A program made the translations under genes and the position numbers. 28,430 bases of DNA from a virus, in IMG/VR virus record IMGVR_UViG_3300020195_000133, positions 1 to 28,430 of that record; one strand, 5' to 3'. This document shows, in pieces, positions 7,542 to 22,861 of this stretch; position 1 is the stretch's first letter, and every line of letters begins with the position of its first letter. The notes beneath the pieces were generated by a model, which worked only from the letters and a program-made list of their open reading frames with translations, was not told where the DNA came from and did no database searches.

Positions 7542-7919
7542 TTACCCCTGCAATCGCTCCGGCAAATCGTTGAGCATTTCCGTGGAGAGATTCACGGCCA
7601 ACAGCGCATTGCGTAGCAATCCCTGCTGCTTTTCGTTTTCGGTCGCTACCGCCTCGGCCAGTGATCGCTCTAGAAGCTCAATGACCTTGGCATGCGCCCG
7701 CATCGCGCCGACGGCCCCTCTAAGAACGCACGGTGCACATGGCCCTTTCTTTTCCACGACGGCCGGCGCGGTGGCATCCGCCACACCTGCCGCAGATTTC
7801 TTGCCGCCGCACGACCCGCACTTCTTCCTTGCCGATGGCTCCGGTGACACCGTCCCGATCGTGGCCAGCCCGCCCGTCCGACTCGCATTTCCGGGTCGAT
7901 GTTCGATTTTCAGTGGCAT
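7542..7919 (-). CDS. Small protein with CxxC pairs, end of the virion operon
   Basis: A 125-aa protein starting three bases after the upstream stop. A basic, Gly/Ser-rich N-terminus carries KKCGSCGGKK and GPCAPC, which together could bind one zinc. The C-terminal half is a predicted helix (AHAKVIELLERSLAEAVATENEKQQGLL). No family is recognised. As the last gene of the structural operon, next to two other Cys-rich proteins, it may be a virion component or an assembly helper. This is inference from position. Confidence 0.65.
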   Translation of the reverse strand: MPLKIEHRPGNASRTGGLATIGTVSPEPSARKKCGSCGGKKSAAGVADATAPAVVEKKGPCAPCVLRGAVGAMRAHAKVIELLERSLAEAVATENEKQQGLLRNALLAVNLSTEMLNDLPERLQG

Positions 7920-7922
7920 GAT

Positions 7923-8561
7923 TTATGGTCCCGTTCCCGTTGGGTTGACAGTGCAAGTCAACTCCGACCAATCAAACCCCCAGGCGGCGTGCGAACTGAT
8001 ACTGGCCGGTACGCCGAGATTTTCAGTTGCCAGACAATCAAAAGGTGTCGCGTGCCAGGCACCGTACCAGATGATCTCAATCGGGAAAGCGTCATTGCCG
8101 GTAGTCAATGTGTTTTTCCAGCGACATCCCAGCTCCTCATCGCTCTCAACGCTGAGTATTGATGAAACTGGATCATTGGCCGGTGCCGACCCAAAATCCC
8201 ACAGCAGTAATTTTAACTGCGTAACTATCGGGTCTTCGCTGATCACGTGGTCGTGATCATCTTGGTGCGTACAACTGTCGCTATGGGCGAAATTGTTCAA
8301 GCCGACCCACAGCGTTTCCAAAGGCGGATCAAAATGCCACTGGTCGTCGCCGGTCCCGACGAATTGCAGTTCGTCGCCATACTCAATTCGTTCAATCTCC
8401 ACGGTCACCACTTCGTCGACCGTTTGCGTCCAGTTCCCGTCCCGCCAACTGCCGGAGATACAACATGGGCAGACCGCATCTGACGTATCACAGCAGCAAT
8501 CCGCGTGCATTGCTAGCGAGTCACCGATCCACAACAATTGATTGCCTAACCAGACTGGCAT
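7923..8561 (-). CDS. Cys-rich putative virion or tail-end protein
   Basis: The start at 8561 (MPVWLGNQLLWIGDSLAMHA) is set by a strong GAGGAGGTG at 8574-8566, inside the end of the upstream gene. A frame extension to 8624 exists but ignores that site. The 212-aa product has a dense Cys cluster, CCCDTSDAVCPCC, near residue 25, followed by a beta-rich body with an acidic, His-containing loop (SCTHQDDHDHV). Pattern and position match the neighbouring Cys-rich modular protein, so it is probably part of the same tail or surface structure. No homologue is named with confidence. Confidence 0.65.
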   Translation of the reverse strand: MPVWLGNQLLWIGDSLAMHADCCCDTSDAVCPCCISGSWRDGNWTQTVDEVVTVEIERIEYGDELQFVGTGDDQWHFDPPLETLWVGLNNFAHSDSCTHQDDHDHVISEDPIVTQLKLLLWDFGSAPANDPVSSILSVESDEELGCRWKNTLTTGNDAFPIEIIWYGAWHATPFDCLATENLGVPASISSHAAWGFDWSELTCTVNPTGTGP

Positions 8562-8562
8562 A

Positions 8563-10665
8563 TCACACCTCCTCGCATTCCGTACCGGCGATTGAAATTT
8601 CTTCCACGCAAACGCCAACGACATGCCCGCCCTCGCCGACGACTAGCGTATTCATCACCAAAATAAATTCATCGCCTGTGCCCTTTTTGAATTCGATACC
8701 CGGCGGAACCTTGCCGCGATATTCCGCCAATTGGCATAGCTCGCACGAATCGTATGGCCCCTGGTAGGCAATATGCGCGTTGGTTACCACTGCACTCCCT
8801 GTGGCAGTCGAGACTACCCAGCACTTCCCTTGGTACTTCACCCACTTGCCAACCGCATCGGCTAGATCGGTCGTTGTGATAATCGGGTCGGTGACAACTG
8901 GCGTGTAGCTGGTATTTTGCGAATCGTCTTTATCTGAGCAAGTATCGCACGAATTCGTCAGTTCATACTTAATCAGCAGATTGCAGCCATCGCACGAATA
9001 GTATTTTTTAGGTGGTGCCTTCGGGGTGAAAAGAACCTCTGCGCCCGTCCAGGTCGGCGTGTCGCTGGTAATCTGCCAGCAAGTATCGTCGTCGTCCCGC
9101 TTCACAAAATCGCCGACCGCGTACCCATGCCCGACCATATCGGAATACGTCACAATCACATCGGGCATCGACTCGGCACACTCGGTCAATTCCCACAAAT
9201 TGCAGCAGGCACATTCTGATTCCGTATCCTCCGCCGCTGGCACGCAATCCGTGTACACTTCCAGGACGGTGACTTCGTTACTGGTGCCGATTCCGCATTG
9301 CGTAGCTGGATCGTCTGCCTCGCTAATCCGATAACACTTTCCATCTGCAAGCCGTGCCACCTGCCCCAGATATTCCCGCAGGTCGAACGGCTCGGCCTCG
9401 GAATTCAGTGCCCGATAAGCGTAAATCACTTCTGGCGATTCGGCGGTACACTCGGTCAGCATCACACAGCCGCACAGGTCGCAATCGTTGCCGATATAGA
9501 CCATCCCCGCGCAGGCAGAGGGATTCTCCGAATCGCATTCGTCGTAGCCGGTGACTTTCCAGCATTCGCCCAAACGCCGAAAGACGGCTCCCGCTGTGAT
9601 CATTTCCGCAGCGGTCGCAGTTCCCAATGGCCCGTTGAATAGATACCGCAGGTCGCACTTCACCTCGATCGACTCGGGCGGCTCGGTTTCATCGCCGCAG
9701 CGAACCAGGGTGTAGCAATAGTTACATTTGCCGCACGCTTCTTGGGCGGAGACAATCGTGACCGTCTGCGTCCCCAGTACCTTAGGATCACTGATCGACA
9801 CCGTGTAGCAGGTGCCGTTATCCAGCTCGACAATGCGGCCGTCGTACTCGGCCAGATCCTGATTGGTGTACAGTACTGTAGAGGCACCCCCGGCACATTC
9901 GGTCAGCTTCCACTGGGCATTGCAATTCGGGCAGCTCGGATACGTCGCCACGATGACCACGCAGACCGCCGCCGTACACTCGGGATCTTCTTCTTCATTC
10001 CGCAGCCGCACGCGGTAACACTGACCATTGGCTTCCTTCACAATCAGATCGTTGTCTGCCTCGTACGACAGATCATTCTTGACATAGCGGTCGATCCATT
10101 TTTCACTGTCGGTGCAGTGCGTCAGCACGTACTCGACCGATTCGGAGTCGCTGCCGACGCCGATCCTCACAATCATCTCCTGCTCTGTCTCGCCATCCGG
10201 CGGAGACAATAGTTCGATCGGCCCCGATTCAGCACTGTTGAGATATGTCTGACCAGCGACAGGCACTGCAAAGCGATGATCTTCATTGATGACATTGACC
10301 CGCGCAATACAGACGCCGCTGACCTGTGCCACGCCAATCTTCTCGCTGGGAATTGGCTCCACTAGGATTGCGTAGCGCTGCTCTACCGGCTCGGCCACCG
10401 TGTCGGCGTCGAACCATAGATTTAGCGGATCCATTTGATCCAGCAGCAGTTCGCCGAGTTGCAGCACACTGCCGCGCGCCAAGTTTCCGCCGCTGCTATT
10501 CCTGAGCTTGATCCGGTCGCTGGAAAAATGCCCTGCCTTCGTCGGCCCCGGCCTTTCCGCGCCGTATTTGTGGGCTTCCACGATGTCGACCAAGTGATTG
10601 ACAAACGCTGCGCTTTTTAACGACGCCGGTGGGTAGCCTTGCCCCTGTGCAGCTTTGTCGGACAT
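8563..10665 (-). CDS. Cys-rich modular virion protein with six tandem modules
   Basis: A 700-aa protein. Residues 1-178 look like a structural head or tail domain (LRNSSGGNLARGSVLQLGEL). Residues 179-646 form six related modules at about 179-249, 252-317, 318-400, 401-489, 491-563 and 567-646. Each starts [YWV]xLTxC or close to it, has a G-x-C-[YW] core in the middle (GQCYRV, GTCYTV, GECWKV, GKCYRI, DTCWQI, GKCWVV), and ends in a CxxC (CPNC, CGKC, CDLC, CACC, CDGC, CELC). A non-modular end contains two more Cys. The pattern suggests metal-bound or disulfide-stabilised beta modules. Its position after the tape measure suggests a tail-tip, fibre or surface protein. The Cys-rich chain is unlike the other virion proteins here. 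Confidence 0.8.
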   Translation of the reverse strand: MSDKAAQGQGYPPASLKSAAFVNHLVDIVEAHKYGAERPGPTKAGHFSSDRIKLRNSSGGNLARGSVLQLGELLLDQMDPLNLWFDADTVAEPVEQRYAILVEPIPSEKIGVAQVSGVCIARVNVINEDHRFAVPVAGQTYLNSAESGPIELLSPPDGETEQEMIVRIGVGSDSESVEYVLTHCTDSEKWIDRYVKNDLSYEADNDLIVKEANGQCYRVRLRNEEEDPECTAAVCVVIVATYPSCPNCNAQWKLTECAGGASTVLYTNQDLAEYDGRIVELDNGTCYTVSISDPKVLGTQTVTIVSAQEACGKCNYCYTLVRCGDETEPPESIEVKCDLRYLFNGPLGTATAAEMITAGAVFRRLGECWKVTGYDECDSENPSACAGMVYIGNDCDLCGCVMLTECTAESPEVIYAYRALNSEAEPFDLREYLGQVARLADGKCYRISEADDPATQCGIGTSNEVTVLEVYTDCVPAAEDTESECACCNLWELTECAESMPDVIVTYSDMVGHGYAVGDFVKRDDDDTCWQITSDTPTWTGAEVLFTPKAPPKKYYSCDGCNLLIKYELTNSCDTCSDKDDSQNTSYTPVVTDPIITTTDLADAVGKWVKYQGKCWVVSTATGSAVVTNAHIAYQGPYDSCELCQLAEYRGKVPPGIEFKKGTGDEFILVMNTLVVGEGGHVVGVCVEEISIAGTECEEV

Positions 10666-10667
10666 GA

Positions 10668-11474
10668 TCAGCTCCAGCCGAAGGTTGAAGAAAAGTCGAT
10701 CTCGTCATAGACCCGTTCGATATGCACTCGCGATGGCTCCTTCGTGGGAAACCCGGCCGCGAACGAGTCCTGGAATTCAATCCAGGCATAGTGGTGACCC
10801 TTCTTGACGATGCCGGTGATTTCACCCAGCGTCAGCGACGATTCGTTCGGAATGATGATGAACTGATAGCTGAGTTCCGCTTCCTTTTCGCTCCCGTCTC
10901 CGCCGCTCGCTCCGGCAAATAGCATTTCGCCGCCGGCCCAGACCAGAAACGGATTCAGATTCACACTGCCGGTGGCGTTCCCCAGAATTTTTACGAAATT
11001 GAGATTCACCACCCCCTCGGGATGTCGGAAATTACAGGTCAATTTCAAGGCGGGAATGATGATATCCGCCCCTTCGATTTCTCCCTCGCGCGTCACCCCG
11101 ATCGAACTCTTGAACATGTTCGCCAGGCTCGGTCCCAAGTCGGGATAACTGGCCATGTGCTGCTTGGCCGCCTTGATCTTCACAGTCGCCCCCGACGTAT
11201 CGAATGAGAAGTCGTAACTGCCGGTCTCGTGCTTTTTCGGTCCGTACGGCACCGTCACGATGTAGCGTGCATATCCGTCAGGATCGACTTGGATGTCTTG
11301 GCGATAGAGCACGCCGGAGAGCGCGTACAACGTCGACGGTGTCCCGGTTTTGGCATACAGCCGCACAATCGAATCGTTCGGCTCGCCGGCCGCCAGGTGA
11401 CGCATTGTCAGGCTCGGCGGCTCCATCGTGCTGGCCCGCGAATCGGGAATTTCGTCGAAGGTAAAGTTCGGCAT
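10668..11474 (-). CDS. Putative phage tail-side structural protein
   Basis: A 268-aa, Cys-poor, beta-rich protein (MPNFTFDEIPDSRASTMEPP...). It lies directly after the tape measure gene and two bases before the Cys-rich modular gene. In long-tailed phages this slot holds distal-tail or tail-tip proteins, so a distal-tail or baseplate-type part is likely. No signature motif is recognised. A stretch SASGGDGSEKE-like loop near residue 195 splits two beta-rich halves. No strong Shine-Dalgarno sequence is seen, so translation may be coupled to the upstream gene. Confidence 0.6.
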   Translation of the reverse strand: MPNFTFDEIPDSRASTMEPPSLTMRHLAAGEPNDSIVRLYAKTGTPSTLYALSGVLYRQDIQVDPDGYARYIVTVPYGPKKHETGSYDFSFDTSGATVKIKAAKQHMASYPDLGPSLANMFKSSIGVTREGEIEGADIIIPALKLTCNFRHPEGVVNLNFVKILGNATGSVNLNPFLVWAGGEMLFAGASGGDGSEKEAELSYQFIIIPNESSLTLGEITGIVKKGHHYAWIEFQDSFAAGFPTKEPSRVHIERVYDEIDFSSTFGWS

Positions 11475-11493: not shown

Positions 11494-13665
11494 TTAGGCC
11501 CCCATGACCGGGCCTTTCTTCTGCTTGATATCCTTCAGATGTTTGTTAATCTGTTTCAATTCATTCAGTTCGGGCTTGTCGGCCCCTGCGCGCAGCGCCG
11601 CGCCACTAAAGGCTCCAAAGATGTCGTCACTGATTTCACCACTCTTCTTGGGAATAAACTTCCCCCGATTGGCGTCGTCATTGCGTGCCGCTGCGGCCGC
11701 CCGTGCGGCCTCAGCCGCCGCTTGCTCGCGTAGTTTCCGCAGCTCTTCGACGGCCGCATCGGCAGCCATTTGGGCCGCGTTCGCACCACCATCTACCTCC
11801 GCCTTAAAATCGTCTGTCGACTTATCAGTATCCGCATCGGCCTGCTGCTTCATCAGATCCAGCACGCTCAGCGCATTACCTGCCATCAAGTCAATGTCTT
11901 CCGATACGCCCCCACTGATTAACTTGCGAATGTCGTAATTGAGATTCTGCCCCGCATATTCCATCAGCCGTTCGTTTTCTTTGATGCTATCTTCGATTTC
12001 CTGTGAACTACGAACCCCGTATTCATAGTTGGGATCGTGTTGGCTACCGCCGGGCGCTAAGGTTGCGTTCACATACGTTCCCTTCCACGGACCAGAGGTA
12101 TGTTTCGTTAACGGATGACCCAGTCCGCCGGGCGCTAAGTCTGCGTTGTATTGCTTCCCACCTGGCTTGAACTCGGGATCCATGAATTTCTGACCCTTGG
12201 CCTCTGCTTCCTTTGCTTGTTTTAGGGCGACTTTATCCAGGTCTCTTTTATCTGTGTATTCCTGCACTTTTTTCACTGCTTGGTCGCGGGCCTCCTTTTG
12301 CCTTTCATCTAAATCCGTGCCGTCCCCAAATACACTCCACAACATCGGGCTATCGATAATCACACCGCTGACGTTTTTCACGGCCTGCTTCCACGTCTTG
12401 ATGACCCATTCGAGGGCGCTAGCAAATCCCTTAATGATGCCGCCGGTGAAGATGTCCCACACCATAGCCATCGCTTTCACGGCCTTTTTCCAGGCACCTT
12501 TGAAATTGCCACCGAGAATGTCTTTGCCGATTCCACCAATCATGTCACCAAACGCGCCTCCAAAAGCTTTACTGATCTTTGCAATACCTTGCAGCATGGC
12601 CACCTTGAGTCCGGTAATCGCGATCTGACCCGCCAGCGCCAGATTCCCCGCGCGCAGCGCATCCATGATGCCGCCAAACGTGGTGCTGAACGTGTTGCCC
12701 AGCTCGGCCAGCAGACTGAACATGTTGTTCGTGGCGATGCGTCCAGATTTGGTGAACTGCGACCAGGCATAGACCGAACCGATCAGCGCAGCGACAATCA
12801 GACCAATTGGGCTGAACACCAATCCCAATACCGTGGCAATGGTTGAAAGCAGTGCTGCCACACCGCCGATGGCGATGGCGATAAATTTGAAGGCCAACGC
12901 CAAACCCATCACCACTGAACCCGTCGCGACTAACACGATTCCAATCTTGGCCAGAATGCCAAACAGGTGCTGATTCTCGCGCACCCATTTGCCGACTGAA
13001 GTCGCCACGCGCTGCGCACCCTGAATCATGTCCTTCATCGCCGGCACAATGGCCGCACCCACCGTGATCGCCATAAATCGAATCGACTTGGACAGGTTCC
13101 CCAGCATGTCCCCGAATTCTTCGGCCGCCGCGGCGTCCTCACTGCTCAACACAAATCCCAGTTCGCGTGCCTCTTCACGCAGCGCCTGTAGGCTGTCCAG
13201 CATCGGTATCAACTGCGGGCCACTCTTGCCAAACAGCTCAATCGCTTTAGCCGCCTTTTTGGACGGATCTTCAATGGCAGCGATCAGAGCCGCGTACCGA
13301 TCAAAGTCTTCGATCTTCTTCCCTTGTTTGGCCAGCTTGAGCAGCGCCATTTCGACCGTTTCGATCGACGTGCCGGACTGTTCGGCGGCGTGCGATAGTT
13401 CGCTGAGCGATTCGACCGAAACACCGGTCCGGTCGCTCATGTCTTTGAGTTTGGAAGCGAAGTTCTCAAACGTCTTGACGGCATAAATAAGAGGACCAAC
13501 AATCGCCGATCCGGCTGCCGCGATGATCGCCCCGATCTCGGCGATTTCAGTGCTAAAACTTCTCAAACGTTTGCTGGCATCGGATAGACCGCGTACGAAT
13601 GCGCCATCTTTCAGCGTCAATTCGACAAAGGCCCTTCCCGCGCGGATATCGCCGGCGTCTGCCAT
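11494..13665 (-). CDS. Phage tail tape measure protein
   Basis: A 723-aa protein with the usual tape measure build: a charged, helical N-terminus (FVELTLKDGAFVRGLSDASK, then KRLRSFSTEIAEIGAIIAAA), the TP901-type segment DMSDRTGVSVESLSELSHAA, long helical stretches, and a hydrophobic middle (about residues 225-300, GIVLVATGSVVMGLALAFKF). Gly-rich amphipathic repeats, an Ala-rich coiled coil and a Lys-rich tail follow. The protein sets tail length and is ejected with DNA. At about 0.15 nm per residue it would imply a tail near 100 nm. The start has GGAG upstream. It follows the tail chaperone genes, the standard order in long-tailed phages. Confidence 0.92.
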   Translation of the reverse strand: MADAGDIRAGRAFVELTLKDGAFVRGLSDASKRLRSFSTEIAEIGAIIAAAGSAIVGPLIYAVKTFENFASKLKDMSDRTGVSVESLSELSHAAEQSGTSIETVEMALLKLAKQGKKIEDFDRYAALIAAIEDPSKKAAKAIELFGKSGPQLIPMLDSLQALREEARELGFVLSSEDAAAAEEFGDMLGNLSKSIRFMAITVGAAIVPAMKDMIQGAQRVATSVGKWVRENQHLFGILAKIGIVLVATGSVVMGLALAFKFIAIAIGGVAALLSTIATVLGLVFSPIGLIVAALIGSVYAWSQFTKSGRIATNNMFSLLAELGNTFSTTFGGIMDALRAGNLALAGQIAITGLKVAMLQGIAKISKAFGGAFGDMIGGIGKDILGGNFKGAWKKAVKAMAMVWDIFTGGIIKGFASALEWVIKTWKQAVKNVSGVIIDSPMLWSVFGDGTDLDERQKEARDQAVKKVQEYTDKRDLDKVALKQAKEAEAKGQKFMDPEFKPGGKQYNADLAPGGLGHPLTKHTSGPWKGTYVNATLAPGGSQHDPNYEYGVRSSQEIEDSIKENERLMEYAGQNLNYDIRKLISGGVSEDIDLMAGNALSVLDLMKQQADADTDKSTDDFKAEVDGGANAAQMAADAAVEELRKLREQAAAEAARAAAAARNDDANRGKFIPKKSGEISDDIFGAFSGAALRAGADKPELNELKQINKHLKDIKQKKGPVMGA

Positions 13666-17620: not shown

Positions 17621-18000
17621 GCACCCACCTTTTTGGTATGCACCGTCAGCATCACACCACCGGCATCCAGGAACTGAACCGCCGGCTTCGTTTCGCTGAG
17701 TGGTGCCACTTCATAGCGCGTCGTCTTGCCGCAGTCCGTGTGCAAAATTTGGGCACCGCTGCGCAGTACAAAGCTGCTGTTGGCCCGCGTCAGGTCTTTG
17801 GCGACAAACGTCCAATCGTAACTTTCGACGCGCACCAGATACCCCTCTTCGCCTACCACTTCATGCTCGGCGATCACCAGTGTTGCCTTCAGGCCGCTGA
17901 TAACGGTCGTATCCTGCGTGATATCGACCCGCCAACTGCAATGCTCTTGCAGTTGCTCACCCAGCCAGGCAGCGCTAGTTTGCAGCAGGTTTCTGGACAT
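17617..18000 (-). CDS. Putative head closure / head-tail joining protein
   Basis: I chose the start at 18000 (MSRNLLQTSAAWLGEQLQEH) because the earlier in-frame ATGs lie deep inside the upstream enzyme gene; the remaining overlap with that gene is 26 bases. The 127-aa, beta-rich protein has an amphipathic helix at the start and ends AGGVMLTVHTKKVGA. A short, beta-rich protein between the capsid and neck genes usually is a head closure (connector) protein. No sequence motif clinches this. Its stop codon lies within a repeat tail. Confidence 0.6.
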   Translation of the reverse strand: MSRNLLQTSAAWLGEQLQEHCSWRVDITQDTTVISGLKATLVIAEHEVVGEEGYLVRVESYDWTFVAKDLTRANSSFVLRSGAQILHTDCGKTTRYEVAPLSETKPAVQFLDAGGVMLTVHTKKVGA

Positions 18001-19342
18001 CCGGTTCCCACTTTTCGCGGGTCGCTTCGTCATGCTCCAGGGTTCCCCAGGCATGGTCGTTTCTAAAACCCTTTTGCCCAAAATGAATCGTGCTCACGCG
18101 CCGCGTCACAAAGGTCTTGGCTCCCAGCTCGGCCATCTTCCGGGAAAAATGCCAATCCTCGCTCTCGCGCTCGTGAACGATCTCACCACTCGGCAGCACC
18201 CTGCCCCGAATCGGAAAACTCAGGTCGGCCACCAGGCAATTGTTTTCATCCACCGTCCGCCACAATGGCTTGCGTAAATCGGCCAGCCAGCAACCGGTGT
18301 TGTGCAACAAGTAACGCTGCGGATGCTCTGTTTGCGTTATGCCAAACGTTTCTGGCATCGCCATCAATTCATGCATCGTCAAGCGACGCAACGGTTGCCA
18401 CGGGTTGCTTGCTGCTCCGATCCCACAGCTTGTCAATCCTTGTTCGTTTTTCAGTGCCGCTACTGCTGAAATCAGATCACCGTCGCGAGCGTCCAGTTCA
18501 TCCGCCAGCAAATCGATCCAGCCTGGCGAAGGCGTGATGTCCGAATGCAGCATCGCAAAATGCGTGACCTTCCGCTGGTACGCCCGGTTAAGGGCATGCA
18601 CCCAGAGTCGATTCATGTCGTCCCAACCCATGCCACTCTGTTCGAGCTCGACATCGTGTGCCCCCAGCGTCGCCTGCATCAGCCCCTTGGCCGCGCCGAA
18701 GCACAGGTTGCTCCCTGGAAATGCCAGCATGATCTTGTGACGCACGCTGTTGCGCCGCTCAAACACCACAGCCGTATCGGCCCGCCAGCGGCAGCGCCAC
18801 TGCGCCGGGTTGGCAGTGATTATTTCGTCGACCGCCTGCACCACGCCGGGATCCGCTTCGTGGCAATCGTGTATCACGACGTGACCACCGAGTTGCACCT
18901 TCGGCAGATACAGCTCCAGGTCGCGACGCACACTTTCGTAATCGTGCGCGCCGTCGACAAACAGCAGTCCACAATTCGGCACATGCTTGGCCGCCACTTC
19001 GCTGGCGTGTGGTATGATCTCCACCAGCTGCAAGGCGGCCGCTTGTTCCAAGTTGGCGATCAGTAACTGCAGGCTACTTTCGTTCGACCACTTCCCTGTG
19101 CTGGTTTGCAGCACCGGTAAAAAGCTGTCGATCGCGTACACTGTCTGCTGCTGGCCCGCCTTGCTACCTAGTGATAGCGCGGCGGTTGAGCGACCCTGAT
19201 ACGATCCAATCTCGACGATCGGCCCTGGTGAATCGACGGCCAGATCGTAGAGCAAGGCCGCCTCTTGCAGAGACAACCAACCGGGGATCTTGCCGACCGC
19301 TTCGAGGGCCAACCGCTTTTGTTCGACTGCTGCACTAGTCAT
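17975..19342 (-). CDS. Methyltransferase-glycosyltransferase fusion protein
   Basis: A 455-aa protein with two enzyme-like domains. Residues 1 to about 200 are a class I SAM methyltransferase of the Methyltransf_24 type: PIVEIGSYQGRSTAALSLG (SAM loop), TVYAIDSF, GLLFVDGAHDYESVRRDLEL, GGHVVIHDC. From about residue 200 a GT-A-like glycosyltransferase follows: KIMLAFPGSNLCFGAAKGLM, THFAMLHSDITPSPGWIDLL (HSD in the DxD position), an acidic ESEDWHFSRKMAELGAKTF block, and a late VSTIHFG with a candidate metal-binding His. It lies inside the virion operon, between decoration and head closure genes. It could modify virion proteins or host surface sugars; the target is unknown. The start abuts a repeat with no Shine-Dalgarno sequence. 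Confidence 0.8.
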   Translation of the reverse strand: MTSAAVEQKRLALEAVGKIPGWLSLQEAALLYDLAVDSPGPIVEIGSYQGRSTAALSLGSKAGQQQTVYAIDSFLPVLQTSTGKWSNESSLQLLIANLEQAAALQLVEIIPHASEVAAKHVPNCGLLFVDGAHDYESVRRDLELYLPKVQLGGHVVIHDCHEADPGVVQAVDEIITANPAQWRCRWRADTAVVFERRNSVRHKIMLAFPGSNLCFGAAKGLMQATLGAHDVELEQSGMGWDDMNRLWVHALNRAYQRKVTHFAMLHSDITPSPGWIDLLADELDARDGDLISAVAALKNEQGLTSCGIGAASNPWQPLRRLTMHELMAMPETFGITQTEHPQRYLLHNTGCWLADLRKPLWRTVDENNCLVADLSFPIRGRVLPSGEIVHERESEDWHFSRKMAELGAKTFVTRRVSTIHFGQKGFRNDHAWGTLEHDEATREKWEPDVQKPAAN

Positions 19343-20725: not shown

Positions 20726-22861
20726 TTAGGTGGCACCCTTGCTGCGGACACCGGCCAGCGTCTCGGCAAAGTCGCAACCGAAGTCATGCACACCGCGGAA
20801 CAGAATTCCGAGCGTGTTGAAGTCGGCGTCGGTGCTCTCGATCGTTGGCGACTGCTGACCGTTCAAGAAGCTGACCACCACGGCGGCCAACAGCTTCGGA
20901 TCACGCAGCAAGTACCAAGCGGTCGTGCTGTTGCCGGTGAACTCGATGTCGCTCAAGTAGTCGACGACTACTGGGCGATACTTCCCCTTGTAGGTGTTGT
21001 TGTTCGGCACACTTTCGGCCGTGGCAGCGCCACCCGTGTTCACGTTCAAGCTGGTATAGAACCCATCGGCGACCGTTTCCAACTCTGGCGGCACCAGCAG
21101 AATCGATGGCTTGCCAGAAATTCGCTTGCCATCGGCACTCTTCAGCTTGCGGAAGGCCAGCACACCTTGGGCCAGACCCACACCGTTGACGCCCAGGTTG
21201 GTCGTCGCTCCTTCAATCAGGTTCGCCCTGGCTAAGGTGAAGAAGCTGGCGTTGTTCATGAACCGGGTCCAGAACACGGTCGACAACTTGCGCGAGGCAC
21301 CCCGACCCAAGCGGGTCCGGATGTCGTCGAAAGCGCCGAGGTCATCGTTGATGATGTCGGCACGAGTCAGTCCGAGCATCTTGGCATAAGTCTTTGCCTG
21401 GCGCGTGTACGACTCTTCCGAAACCGAACCATGCTTGATCTCGCCGGTTGGTCCCACCTCTTCGTATTCCAGCGAATCGTTCATCCGATAGCTGGTCACG
21501 GCGTGGAAGTTGTTGACGCTCTTGACGGCGGCCACCTCTTTCCACTCCATCGGGTCTTCGGTGAACCCGGCCAGAATCTCTTTGTTGGCCACACTCCCCA
21601 ACACGCCTGGCAGCGAGACGGTGGAAAAACCACCCGCCATCCGCGCGGTCGCAGGTGGGAAGCAGTGTTCCAAAACACTGCGAATGTTCCCGACATTGAT
21701 TCGTTCGCCGGCGACGGCGTGGTAGCCGTTGCTGCAGGCGGTTCGCAGCAACAACTGCTGCAATCCGTAACCGCGCATCTTGTGGCGATCAACCGCCTCC
21801 AATATCTTTGGTTCAAAATGCTTTTCGATATCGGGCAGACCGGCCGACATGCAGATCGCCGCCACGGTGACCGTGTCGTCGACCTTGTGATGCATGGCCG
21901 TTTGGAAGGTGCCGGTCGTCGAGCGCAGGCTACGGAGCAACTGCAGCTCGAACCGATCGATGTCCATCTTTTCGCCGATGGCATTCGAGACGGCATGCTC
22001 GATCTGGTCGATGTAGTTCGGATTATCCTTCATGGCCAAGTGGCCCATCGACTTGATCTTTTCGCAGCGCTCATTATCCCGGCGTTCGGTTTCGGCCAAC
22101 TCGGCAAACGAGTTAGCGGAGCGCGTGGCAGGCTTGGTCTTGACGGCAACCTGCGCATCAAATGCCGCTTGCAGCGTGGCCTTTTGTGCGTCCGAGGCAG
22201 TCTCTGGGTCTACACCGCAGGCGACAAGAAACTTTTCAAACTCATTCATTTCGTTTTCTCCTGCGGCAGCCGCCGCGATGGTGACCTGGTTTCCTGAGTC
22301 TGCACCGTGCGAGACAAAGGCGTAGCCGGTGAGCTTGCTCTTACCGACGATGTAGAGCGGACCGCTGACTGTGCGGACATTGATGACTTCCGTCGCGCCT
22401 GCCTTCAGCAGTCGCGGATTTTGTAACTCGGCTTCGATCGACAACTGCCAAGGGAAGCCGTCCTTCGAACTTTGCACGACCTGATCGCGATGCGGCGTCG
22501 ATGCCGACAGCACACCCTCAATCAGCACCTGCTTGCCGTCGATCTGGACGTTGTCCGCATGCCCCGTGCGCTGGTCGGCCTTGTGATCCAGATTCCCAAT
22601 CACACTCCGGTCCACGCTCATTCCCTTCAGGTCCAGCACGTAGTCGTGCTTGAGCATCGGCTTGGACGTGAGGCGACTGACGGTCTGCCCGCTGTAGGCA
22701 ATCGCTTGAAACTTCGCTGGACCTGGCTGGGACTCGCCCTCCACGGGCGCGGCAGCTTGCAGCGTGACCGGCACGGACTCGAGGGCCATCGTTCTGACAA
22801 CGGTGCTCGCCAATTTTGCTTGCAGCTGCCGAGACTTAGGCTGGCGTGGGGATCGGCTCAT
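20726..22861 (-). CDS. Prohead protease-major capsid fusion protein
   Basis: A 711-aa protein whose start overlaps the portal gene by 26 bases and has GGAG upstream. Residues 1 to about 200 resemble a prohead protease: FQAIAYSGQTVSRLTSKPML, GNLDHKADQRTGHADNVQ (candidate His93 or His101) and FPWQLSIEAEL (candidate Ser141). About 205-290 is helical and charged, like a scaffold (MNEFEKFLVACGVDPETASD). The rest is capsid-like: DAFDDIRTRLGRGASRKLST-type helices, LSTVFWTRFMNNASFFT, and PSILLVPPELETVADGFYTS with YRPVVVDYLSDIEFTG. Self-cleaving fusions of this kind are known in lambda- and Mu-like prophages. The chain would be cut to free the shell protein. The catalytic residues named are candidates only. 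Confidence 0.85.
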   Translation of the reverse strand: MSRSPRQPKSRQLQAKLASTVVRTMALESVPVTLQAAAPVEGESQPGPAKFQAIAYSGQTVSRLTSKPMLKHDYVLDLKGMSVDRSVIGNLDHKADQRTGHADNVQIDGKQVLIEGVLSASTPHRDQVVQSSKDGFPWQLSIEAELQNPRLLKAGATEVINVRTVSGPLYIVGKSKLTGYAFVSHGADSGNQVTIAAAAAGENEMNEFEKFLVACGVDPETASDAQKATLQAAFDAQVAVKTKPATRSANSFAELAETERRDNERCEKIKSMGHLAMKDNPNYIDQIEHAVSNAIGEKMDIDRFELQLLRSLRSTTGTFQTAMHHKVDDTVTVAAICMSAGLPDIEKHFEPKILEAVDRHKMRGYGLQQLLLRTACSNGYHAVAGERINVGNIRSVLEHCFPPATARMAGGFSTVSLPGVLGSVANKEILAGFTEDPMEWKEVAAVKSVNNFHAVTSYRMNDSLEYEEVGPTGEIKHGSVSEESYTRQAKTYAKMLGLTRADIINDDLGAFDDIRTRLGRGASRKLSTVFWTRFMNNASFFTLARANLIEGATTNLGVNGVGLAQGVLAFRKLKSADGKRISGKPSILLVPPELETVADGFYTSLNVNTGGAATAESVPNNNTYKGKYRPVVVDYLSDIEFTGNSTTAWYLLRDPKLLAAVVVSFLNGQQSPTIESTDADFNTLGILFRGVHDFGCDFAETLAGVRSKGAT

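Follow-up and report, generated by a model that had tools for sequence, protein, structure and literature searches.

A cysteine-rich modular protein with a conserved anchor as the probable tail-tip fibre of a planctomycete siphophage

In a 28,430-nt IMG/VR virus sequence (the whole stretch of DNA analysed, hereafter the window), the open reading frame at 10665–8563 on the minus strand encodes a protein of 700 residues with 38 cysteines. We propose, with a probability of about 0.66, that this protein is a two-part, disulfide-stabilised tail-tip fibre or adhesin of a planctomycete siphophage. Its N-terminal part belongs to a family of anchor domains that are joined to quite different C-termini in other phages, and these swapped fibre C-termini on the same anchor are the best evidence for what the C-terminal part, an array of six homologous Cys-rich modules, would do. 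A preliminary description of this DNA recognised the modules and missed both the anchor and its exchangeable C-termini.

Results

Gene setting of the Cys-rich protein

The late genes of the window lie on the minus strand and include those for the terminase, the portal, a protease–capsid fusion and the tape measure. The Cys-rich gene is encoded among the tail genes, in the order tape measure, 268-residue protein, Cys-rich protein, and owes its tail context to the tape-measure gene nearby. The main features of the region are as follows.

8563–10665, minus strand: Cys-rich modular protein, proposed tail-tip fibre or adhesin (700 aa, 38 Cys; ORF and translation)
10138–10665, minus strand: N-terminal anchor domain, residues 1–176 (19-member family alignment, genome counts, predicted fold)
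8566–8730, minus strand: C-terminal tail, residues 646–700, two Cys (orthologues keep it together with the array; alignment with L055)
10668–11474, minus strand: 268-aa protein, conserved partner gene directly upstream of the Cys-rich ORF (homologues at related loci)
11494–13665, minus strand: tail tape-measure protein, 723 aa, no Cys (phrog_8125, E 4e-26)
7923–8561, minus strand: Cys-rich protein encoded downstream, 212 aa with 10 Cys when read from MPVWLGNQLL (a start chosen by comparison with the L055 and L057 homologues)
7542–7919, minus strand: 125-aa ORF with 4 Cys as two CxxC pairs, end of the late operon
20726–22861, minus strand: fusion of protease and major capsid protein, 711 aa (phrog_4523, 4e-53)
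17975–19342, minus strand: methyltransferase PF13578 extended by an additional C-terminal part, among the virion genes (Pfam match)
20119–19418: decoration-like gene beside the capsid gene, judged by eye

The cysteines are concentrated in the C-terminal part of the protein, where 35 of the 38 lie within residues 177–645; the first count of about 26 or more had the character of the chain right and its number too low. Cysteine accounts for 5.4% of this protein, 4.7% of the next gene product and 0.96% of the rest of the late operon (50 of 5,220 residues). The early picture of an operon poor in cysteine apart from two downstream neighbours thus holds for the first neighbour, while the second (7919–7542) has 4 Cys only. 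The protein itself falls into no PHROG family and into no Pfam family above cut-off, matches being confined to relatives that share its N-terminus, and searches of phage and plasmid collections by tblastn with the whole protein and with a consensus gave no usable match. A second contig encodes an identical protein (100% identity over residues 1–700), a copy that is not independent. The initial view of the protein as modular, structural and of the virion type is supported, as is its proposed position at the tail tip, the gene following the tape measure with one gene in between.

The N-terminal anchor domain

Residues 1–178 match proteins of other phages, found via their terminase, at 30–36% identity. 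A profile of 19 members places the family in 41 of the 392 sampled Planctomycetota genomes (~10%) at E 1e-5. The 268-residue partner travels with it: a homologue lies immediately or closely upstream of the anchor-family gene in 68 of the 78 loci, which partly overlap and are not all independent. When 84,980 genomes were scanned with the partner, six loci were recovered, five titled as planctomycetes and the sixth assigned to Planctomycetota. The locus L050, titled Vicinamibacteraceae, was considered as a host outside the phylum and rejected, as its genome is assigned to the same phylum. The partner, conserved in phages and prophages of planctomycetes alike, belongs to no named family and its PDB matches are implausible (Fab, sorting nexin); we regard it as a candidate distal tail protein of this planctomycete phage group.

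In the AlphaFold2 model the anchor part is confident at residues 51–70 and about 101–170 (block pLDDT 84–95). Among solved structures, the closest in fold are phage decoration proteins and the base of the phi29 head fibre, gp8.5; the top nine PDB matches in Foldseek have a probability of 0.98–1.0 and E of 5e-3 to 6e-2, the best among them having E of 5e-3 to 3e-2 and TM-scores by target of 0.50–0.58. Predicted viral relatives of the fold are named for collagen repeats, a tropism determinant and an intramolecular chaperone. The modelled anchor appears to resemble the decoration and fibre-base domains of the phi29 gp8.5 class. One planctomycete genome (G371) has eight anchor-domain matches at separate chromosomal sites, which suggests many related prophages in one chromosome.

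Swapped C-termini behind the anchor

What follows the anchor differs widely among members of the family: collagen repeats, tail-fibre PHROGs, stalks rich in Ser, Thr or Gly/Ser (L094, L085, L044), or very little. One member (L090) matches Pfam Collagen at E 1.7e-31 and the tail-fibre family phrog_6320 at 1.3e-37, and another (L098) matches the tail-fibre family phrog_892 at 2.7e-15. The protein thus displays the class feature of fibres and adhesins, a conserved N-terminal attachment domain with an interchangeable C-terminus. A match to a catalogued fibre family does not define this class, and we group the protein with fibres by its likely way of working and not under any named fibre family. 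Because the anchor of other prophages carries fibre sequences, the module array stands where a fibre would otherwise be.

The low-complexity stalks have features of their own. In L094, L049, L062, L102, L044 and L085 they are very long, rich in Ser, Gly/Ser or Thr (up to about 47–49% Ser), and carry small Cys clusters, giving mucin-like fibres in planctomycete prophages. The fibres at L090:1141–3951 and L091:218–2698 contain repeated 'GCGL...AGxGL...' units with about 1–2 Cys per unit, and in L090 the collagen repeats follow these units. Sugar-modifying genes lie among the virion genes as well: in the window the PF13578 methyltransferase gene, and downstream of the anchor gene in L032, L044, L049, L052 and L112 glycosyltransferase- and FkbM-like ORFs seen by eye. 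In some phages they adjoin the genes for Ser/Thr-rich stalks. Glycosylated fibres are possible.

Six homologous modules

Residues 177–645 consist of six modules, 64–89 residues in length, all on the minus strand.

9913–10137, minus strand: module M1, residues 177–251
9721–9912, minus strand: module M2, residues 252–315 (AlphaFold2 module model pLDDT 82.6, pTM 0.65)
9466–9720, minus strand: module M3, residues 316–400, the most divergent copy
9199–9465, minus strand: module M4, residues 401–489
8980–9198, minus strand: module M5, residues 490–562
8731–8979, minus strand: module M6, residues 563–645, with an extra Cys ahead of the first core Cys

The modules share the signature LTxC, GxC[YW] and a terminal CxxC, that is, four conserved cysteines on a small five-stranded beta fold. 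When each module was scored against a profile of the other five, M1, M2, M4 and M5 reached 25–34 bits, compared with 8–9 bits for the best among 500 composition-preserving shuffles, and M3 (6.6 bits) and M6 (9.1 bits) failed this single-sequence jackknife. We also built position-wise profiles of the modules from six orthologues and compared them by HHalign, which gave a probability of 84–99% for every pair except M1–M6 (29–66%). These links place all six modules in one family. The expectation that the segments would align in a profile search was therefore borne out for four modules singly and for all six, M1–M6 weakly, once the orthologues were included; the same orthologue profiles, together with a repeated order of predicted elements, bear out the original reading of six related Cys modules. 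A six-row profile recovers all six in the window (E 1e-19 to 5e-30, by construction) and also matches modules in an independent phage (best E 8e-14). We conclude that the six Cys modules are real and homologous. By sequence they match nothing in Pfam, PHROGs or the PDB, and the family, absent also from the phage collection searched, is new to these libraries; the role of the protein is one already known.

A fixed array in related phages

The array occurs on the same N-terminus in L055 (664 aa), L057 (666 aa) and L112 (661 aa), and on an unrelated N-terminus in L114 (634 aa) and L115 (644 aa), near which no match to the tape measure or the partner gene was found. In each of the six proteins, the one in the window included, the count is exactly six, the module order is the same and a similar tail follows the array. 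For 13 of the 15 protein pairs, none of the 720 possible pairings of modules was better than the one that keeps the order; it ranked 2 and 11 in the other two, so the modules diverged before these phages did, and their number is fixed in the orthologous array. Since six copies are kept on two different N-termini, the array is inherited as one unit and is probably exchanged as one unit.

Module number, proposed at the outset to vary, does so in looser relatives only, where it is one in L116 and L118, two in L119 and about seven, several of them weak, in L117/L120. In L120, a Phycisphaerae-side genome, the tape measure is followed by the 268-aa homologue, a stand-alone anchor gene and a separate module protein with 39 Cys; the adjacency of the two as separate genes indicates that anchor and array go together, in one chain or in two. 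The six-row profile matched none of the 392 Planctomycetota genomes at E 1e-3. With a broader profile of 24 rows, matches came from 3 of the 397 genomes in the class to which G013 belongs. Relatives in planctomycetes, where the preliminary description proposed to search, are supported.

Module fold and cysteine chemistry

A single module modelled by AlphaFold2 with 18 module sequences has five strands at a pLDDT of 82.6 and a pTM of 0.65. The full-chain model, built on an alignment with only three rows across the modules, shows one and the same order of strands and turns in all six, as the module idea first put forward requires. Global confidence in the full-length model is low (pTM 0.33), which makes a straight rod tentative. 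The best PDB match of the module fold has an E of 2.7, which is not significant, and no solved structure in the PDB matches it.

Cys1 and Cys3 are present in 36 of 36 orthologous modules and Cys2 and Cys4 in 35 of 36. The exception, a single case, is M4 of the protein at L112:5254–7239, in which core Cys2 is replaced by Ile and Cys4 by Ala, both absent together, and Cys1 and Cys3 are kept. Additional cysteines between Cys2 and Cys3 and after Cys4 tend to occur jointly: 21 modules have both, 10 neither and 5 only one (Fisher p 6e-5, for 36 orthologous modules that share ancestry and are not independent). The joint absence of Cys2 and Cys4 and the arrival of extra cysteines in pairs favour disulfides over a four-ligand metal site. 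The modules are thus most likely disulfide-bonded, judging from the Cys pattern. Each would contain two core disulfides, Cys2–Cys4 and hence Cys1–Cys3, and M1–M4 would mostly have a further Cys pair reaching into the linker. Phage proteins fold in the reducing cytoplasm, so the bonds would need to form after lysis, which counts against them.

Cys-rich genes at the tail end

Across 20 loci with the partner gene, the gene that follows the anchor gene has a median Cys content of 3.9% (18 genes), compared with 1.9% for the anchor gene itself and 0.36% for the upstream genes. A high Cys content in genes at the tail end thus characterises this phage group, which arrives at it through different sequences.

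Discussion

In the model that we favour, residues 1–176 would form a beta-tulip-like anchor, a base that is trimeric by analogy and attaches to the virion at the tail end next to the 268-aa gene product. Residues 177–700 would form the stalk or adhesin, with six five-stranded beta modules in a row and a short C-terminal tail, and the array may reach out to contact the host envelope as a stiff and resistant extension.

The main rival places the same protein on the head, since the fold of the anchor is best known from capsids: the N-terminal domain would sit on the capsid as in phi29 gp8.5 or phage T1, and the modules would project outwards. The closest solved folds are indeed those of capsid decoration proteins and of the phi29 head-fibre base, and gp8.5, made up of a trimeric beta-tulip base and a fibre, helps the phage to bind its host (PMC7602432, PMC6542822). 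The gene, however, belongs to the tail end of the operon and in those 68 of 78 loci has the 268-aa partner in front of it; a separate decoration-like gene (by eye) stands beside the capsid gene, and other members of the anchor family bear C-termini of the tail-fibre type. We therefore consider a head fibre or capsid decoration rather unlikely. A different objection concerns what holds the array together, which could be zinc or iron bound by the four core cysteines of each module, as the preliminary description had allowed alongside disulfides. Four conserved cysteines including a CxxC knuckle would suit such a site, but the first two core cysteines are not knuckles, the module alignments have no conserved His column, and no known zinc domain in Pfam or the PDB matches. 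The one module of L112 that keeps only Cys1 and Cys3 (again, a single case) shows the four not retained as one set, and with additional cysteines tending to come in pairs, it makes a metal-binding rod improbable and leaves disulfides as the part of that early suggestion that stands.

Two further ideas turn on the host. Planctomycete cell walls have been described as made of protein and containing Cys-rich YTV proteins (PMC8567305), and a link of the array to the host surface would be an attractive possibility. In its strongest form, the array would be a covalently locked disulfide rod, a six-module cassette moving between unrelated phages, whose exposed cysteines exchange thiols and disulfides with the wall and so attach the phage covalently; we hold this to be very improbable. 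That the modules are phage copies of the YTV repeats, integrating into the host wall, is suggested by the 'CYTV' common to both and by the protein walls of these hosts (PMC8567305), yet the Pfam YTV family (PF07639) has no match in the window, HHalign gives 1.3% probability over 7 columns, and the YTV repeat unit is about 32 aa (by eye) against 64–89 aa for the modules. An identity of the modules with YTV repeats is rejected at the sequence level, and host mimicry as a whole appears extremely improbable.

A limited literature search found no study of phage attachment to planctomycetes and nothing direct on the tail proteins of their phages. If the tail-tip fibre reading is correct, the C-terminus of each anchor-family protein marks the part likely to contact the host, so that candidate receptor-binding proteins can be picked out throughout the phylum. 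To the phage fibre, a known kind of protein, the module family contributes a small beta domain rich in Cys. These results should be of use mainly to phage structural biologists and planctomycete researchers.

Among known systems, the planctomycete YTV wall repeats (PF07639) share with the modules the tandem Cys-rich layout and a CYTV strand, but they are not homologous by profile comparison and are not a phage virion family. The phi29 gp8.5 head fibre and the decoration proteins of the beta-tulip type (gpD, T1, Sf11) may share the predicted N-terminal fold, and the layout of base plus fibre is alike (PMC7602432; PMC6542822); no sequence similarity to the anchor domain was detected, and here the gene stands behind the tape measure rather than beside the capsid gene and the protein lacks the coiled-coil spike. 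The Agrobacterium phage Milano, with a Cys-rich, disulfide-locked tail and 2.1% Cys in its structural proteins, provides a precedent for a phage tail held by disulfides (PMC10811340). The disulfides described for it join subunits of the sheath, tube and baseplate (PMC10811340), whereas those proposed here would lie mostly within the modules of one chain with 5.4% Cys, and the comparison implies no homology. Anchored tail fibres are like the protein in their conserved N-terminus, variable C-terminus, tail-end gene and collagen-like or tail-fibre relatives; where such fibres have collagen, a beta-helix or a coiled-coil trimer, the C-terminus here is built of six small Cys-rich beta modules.
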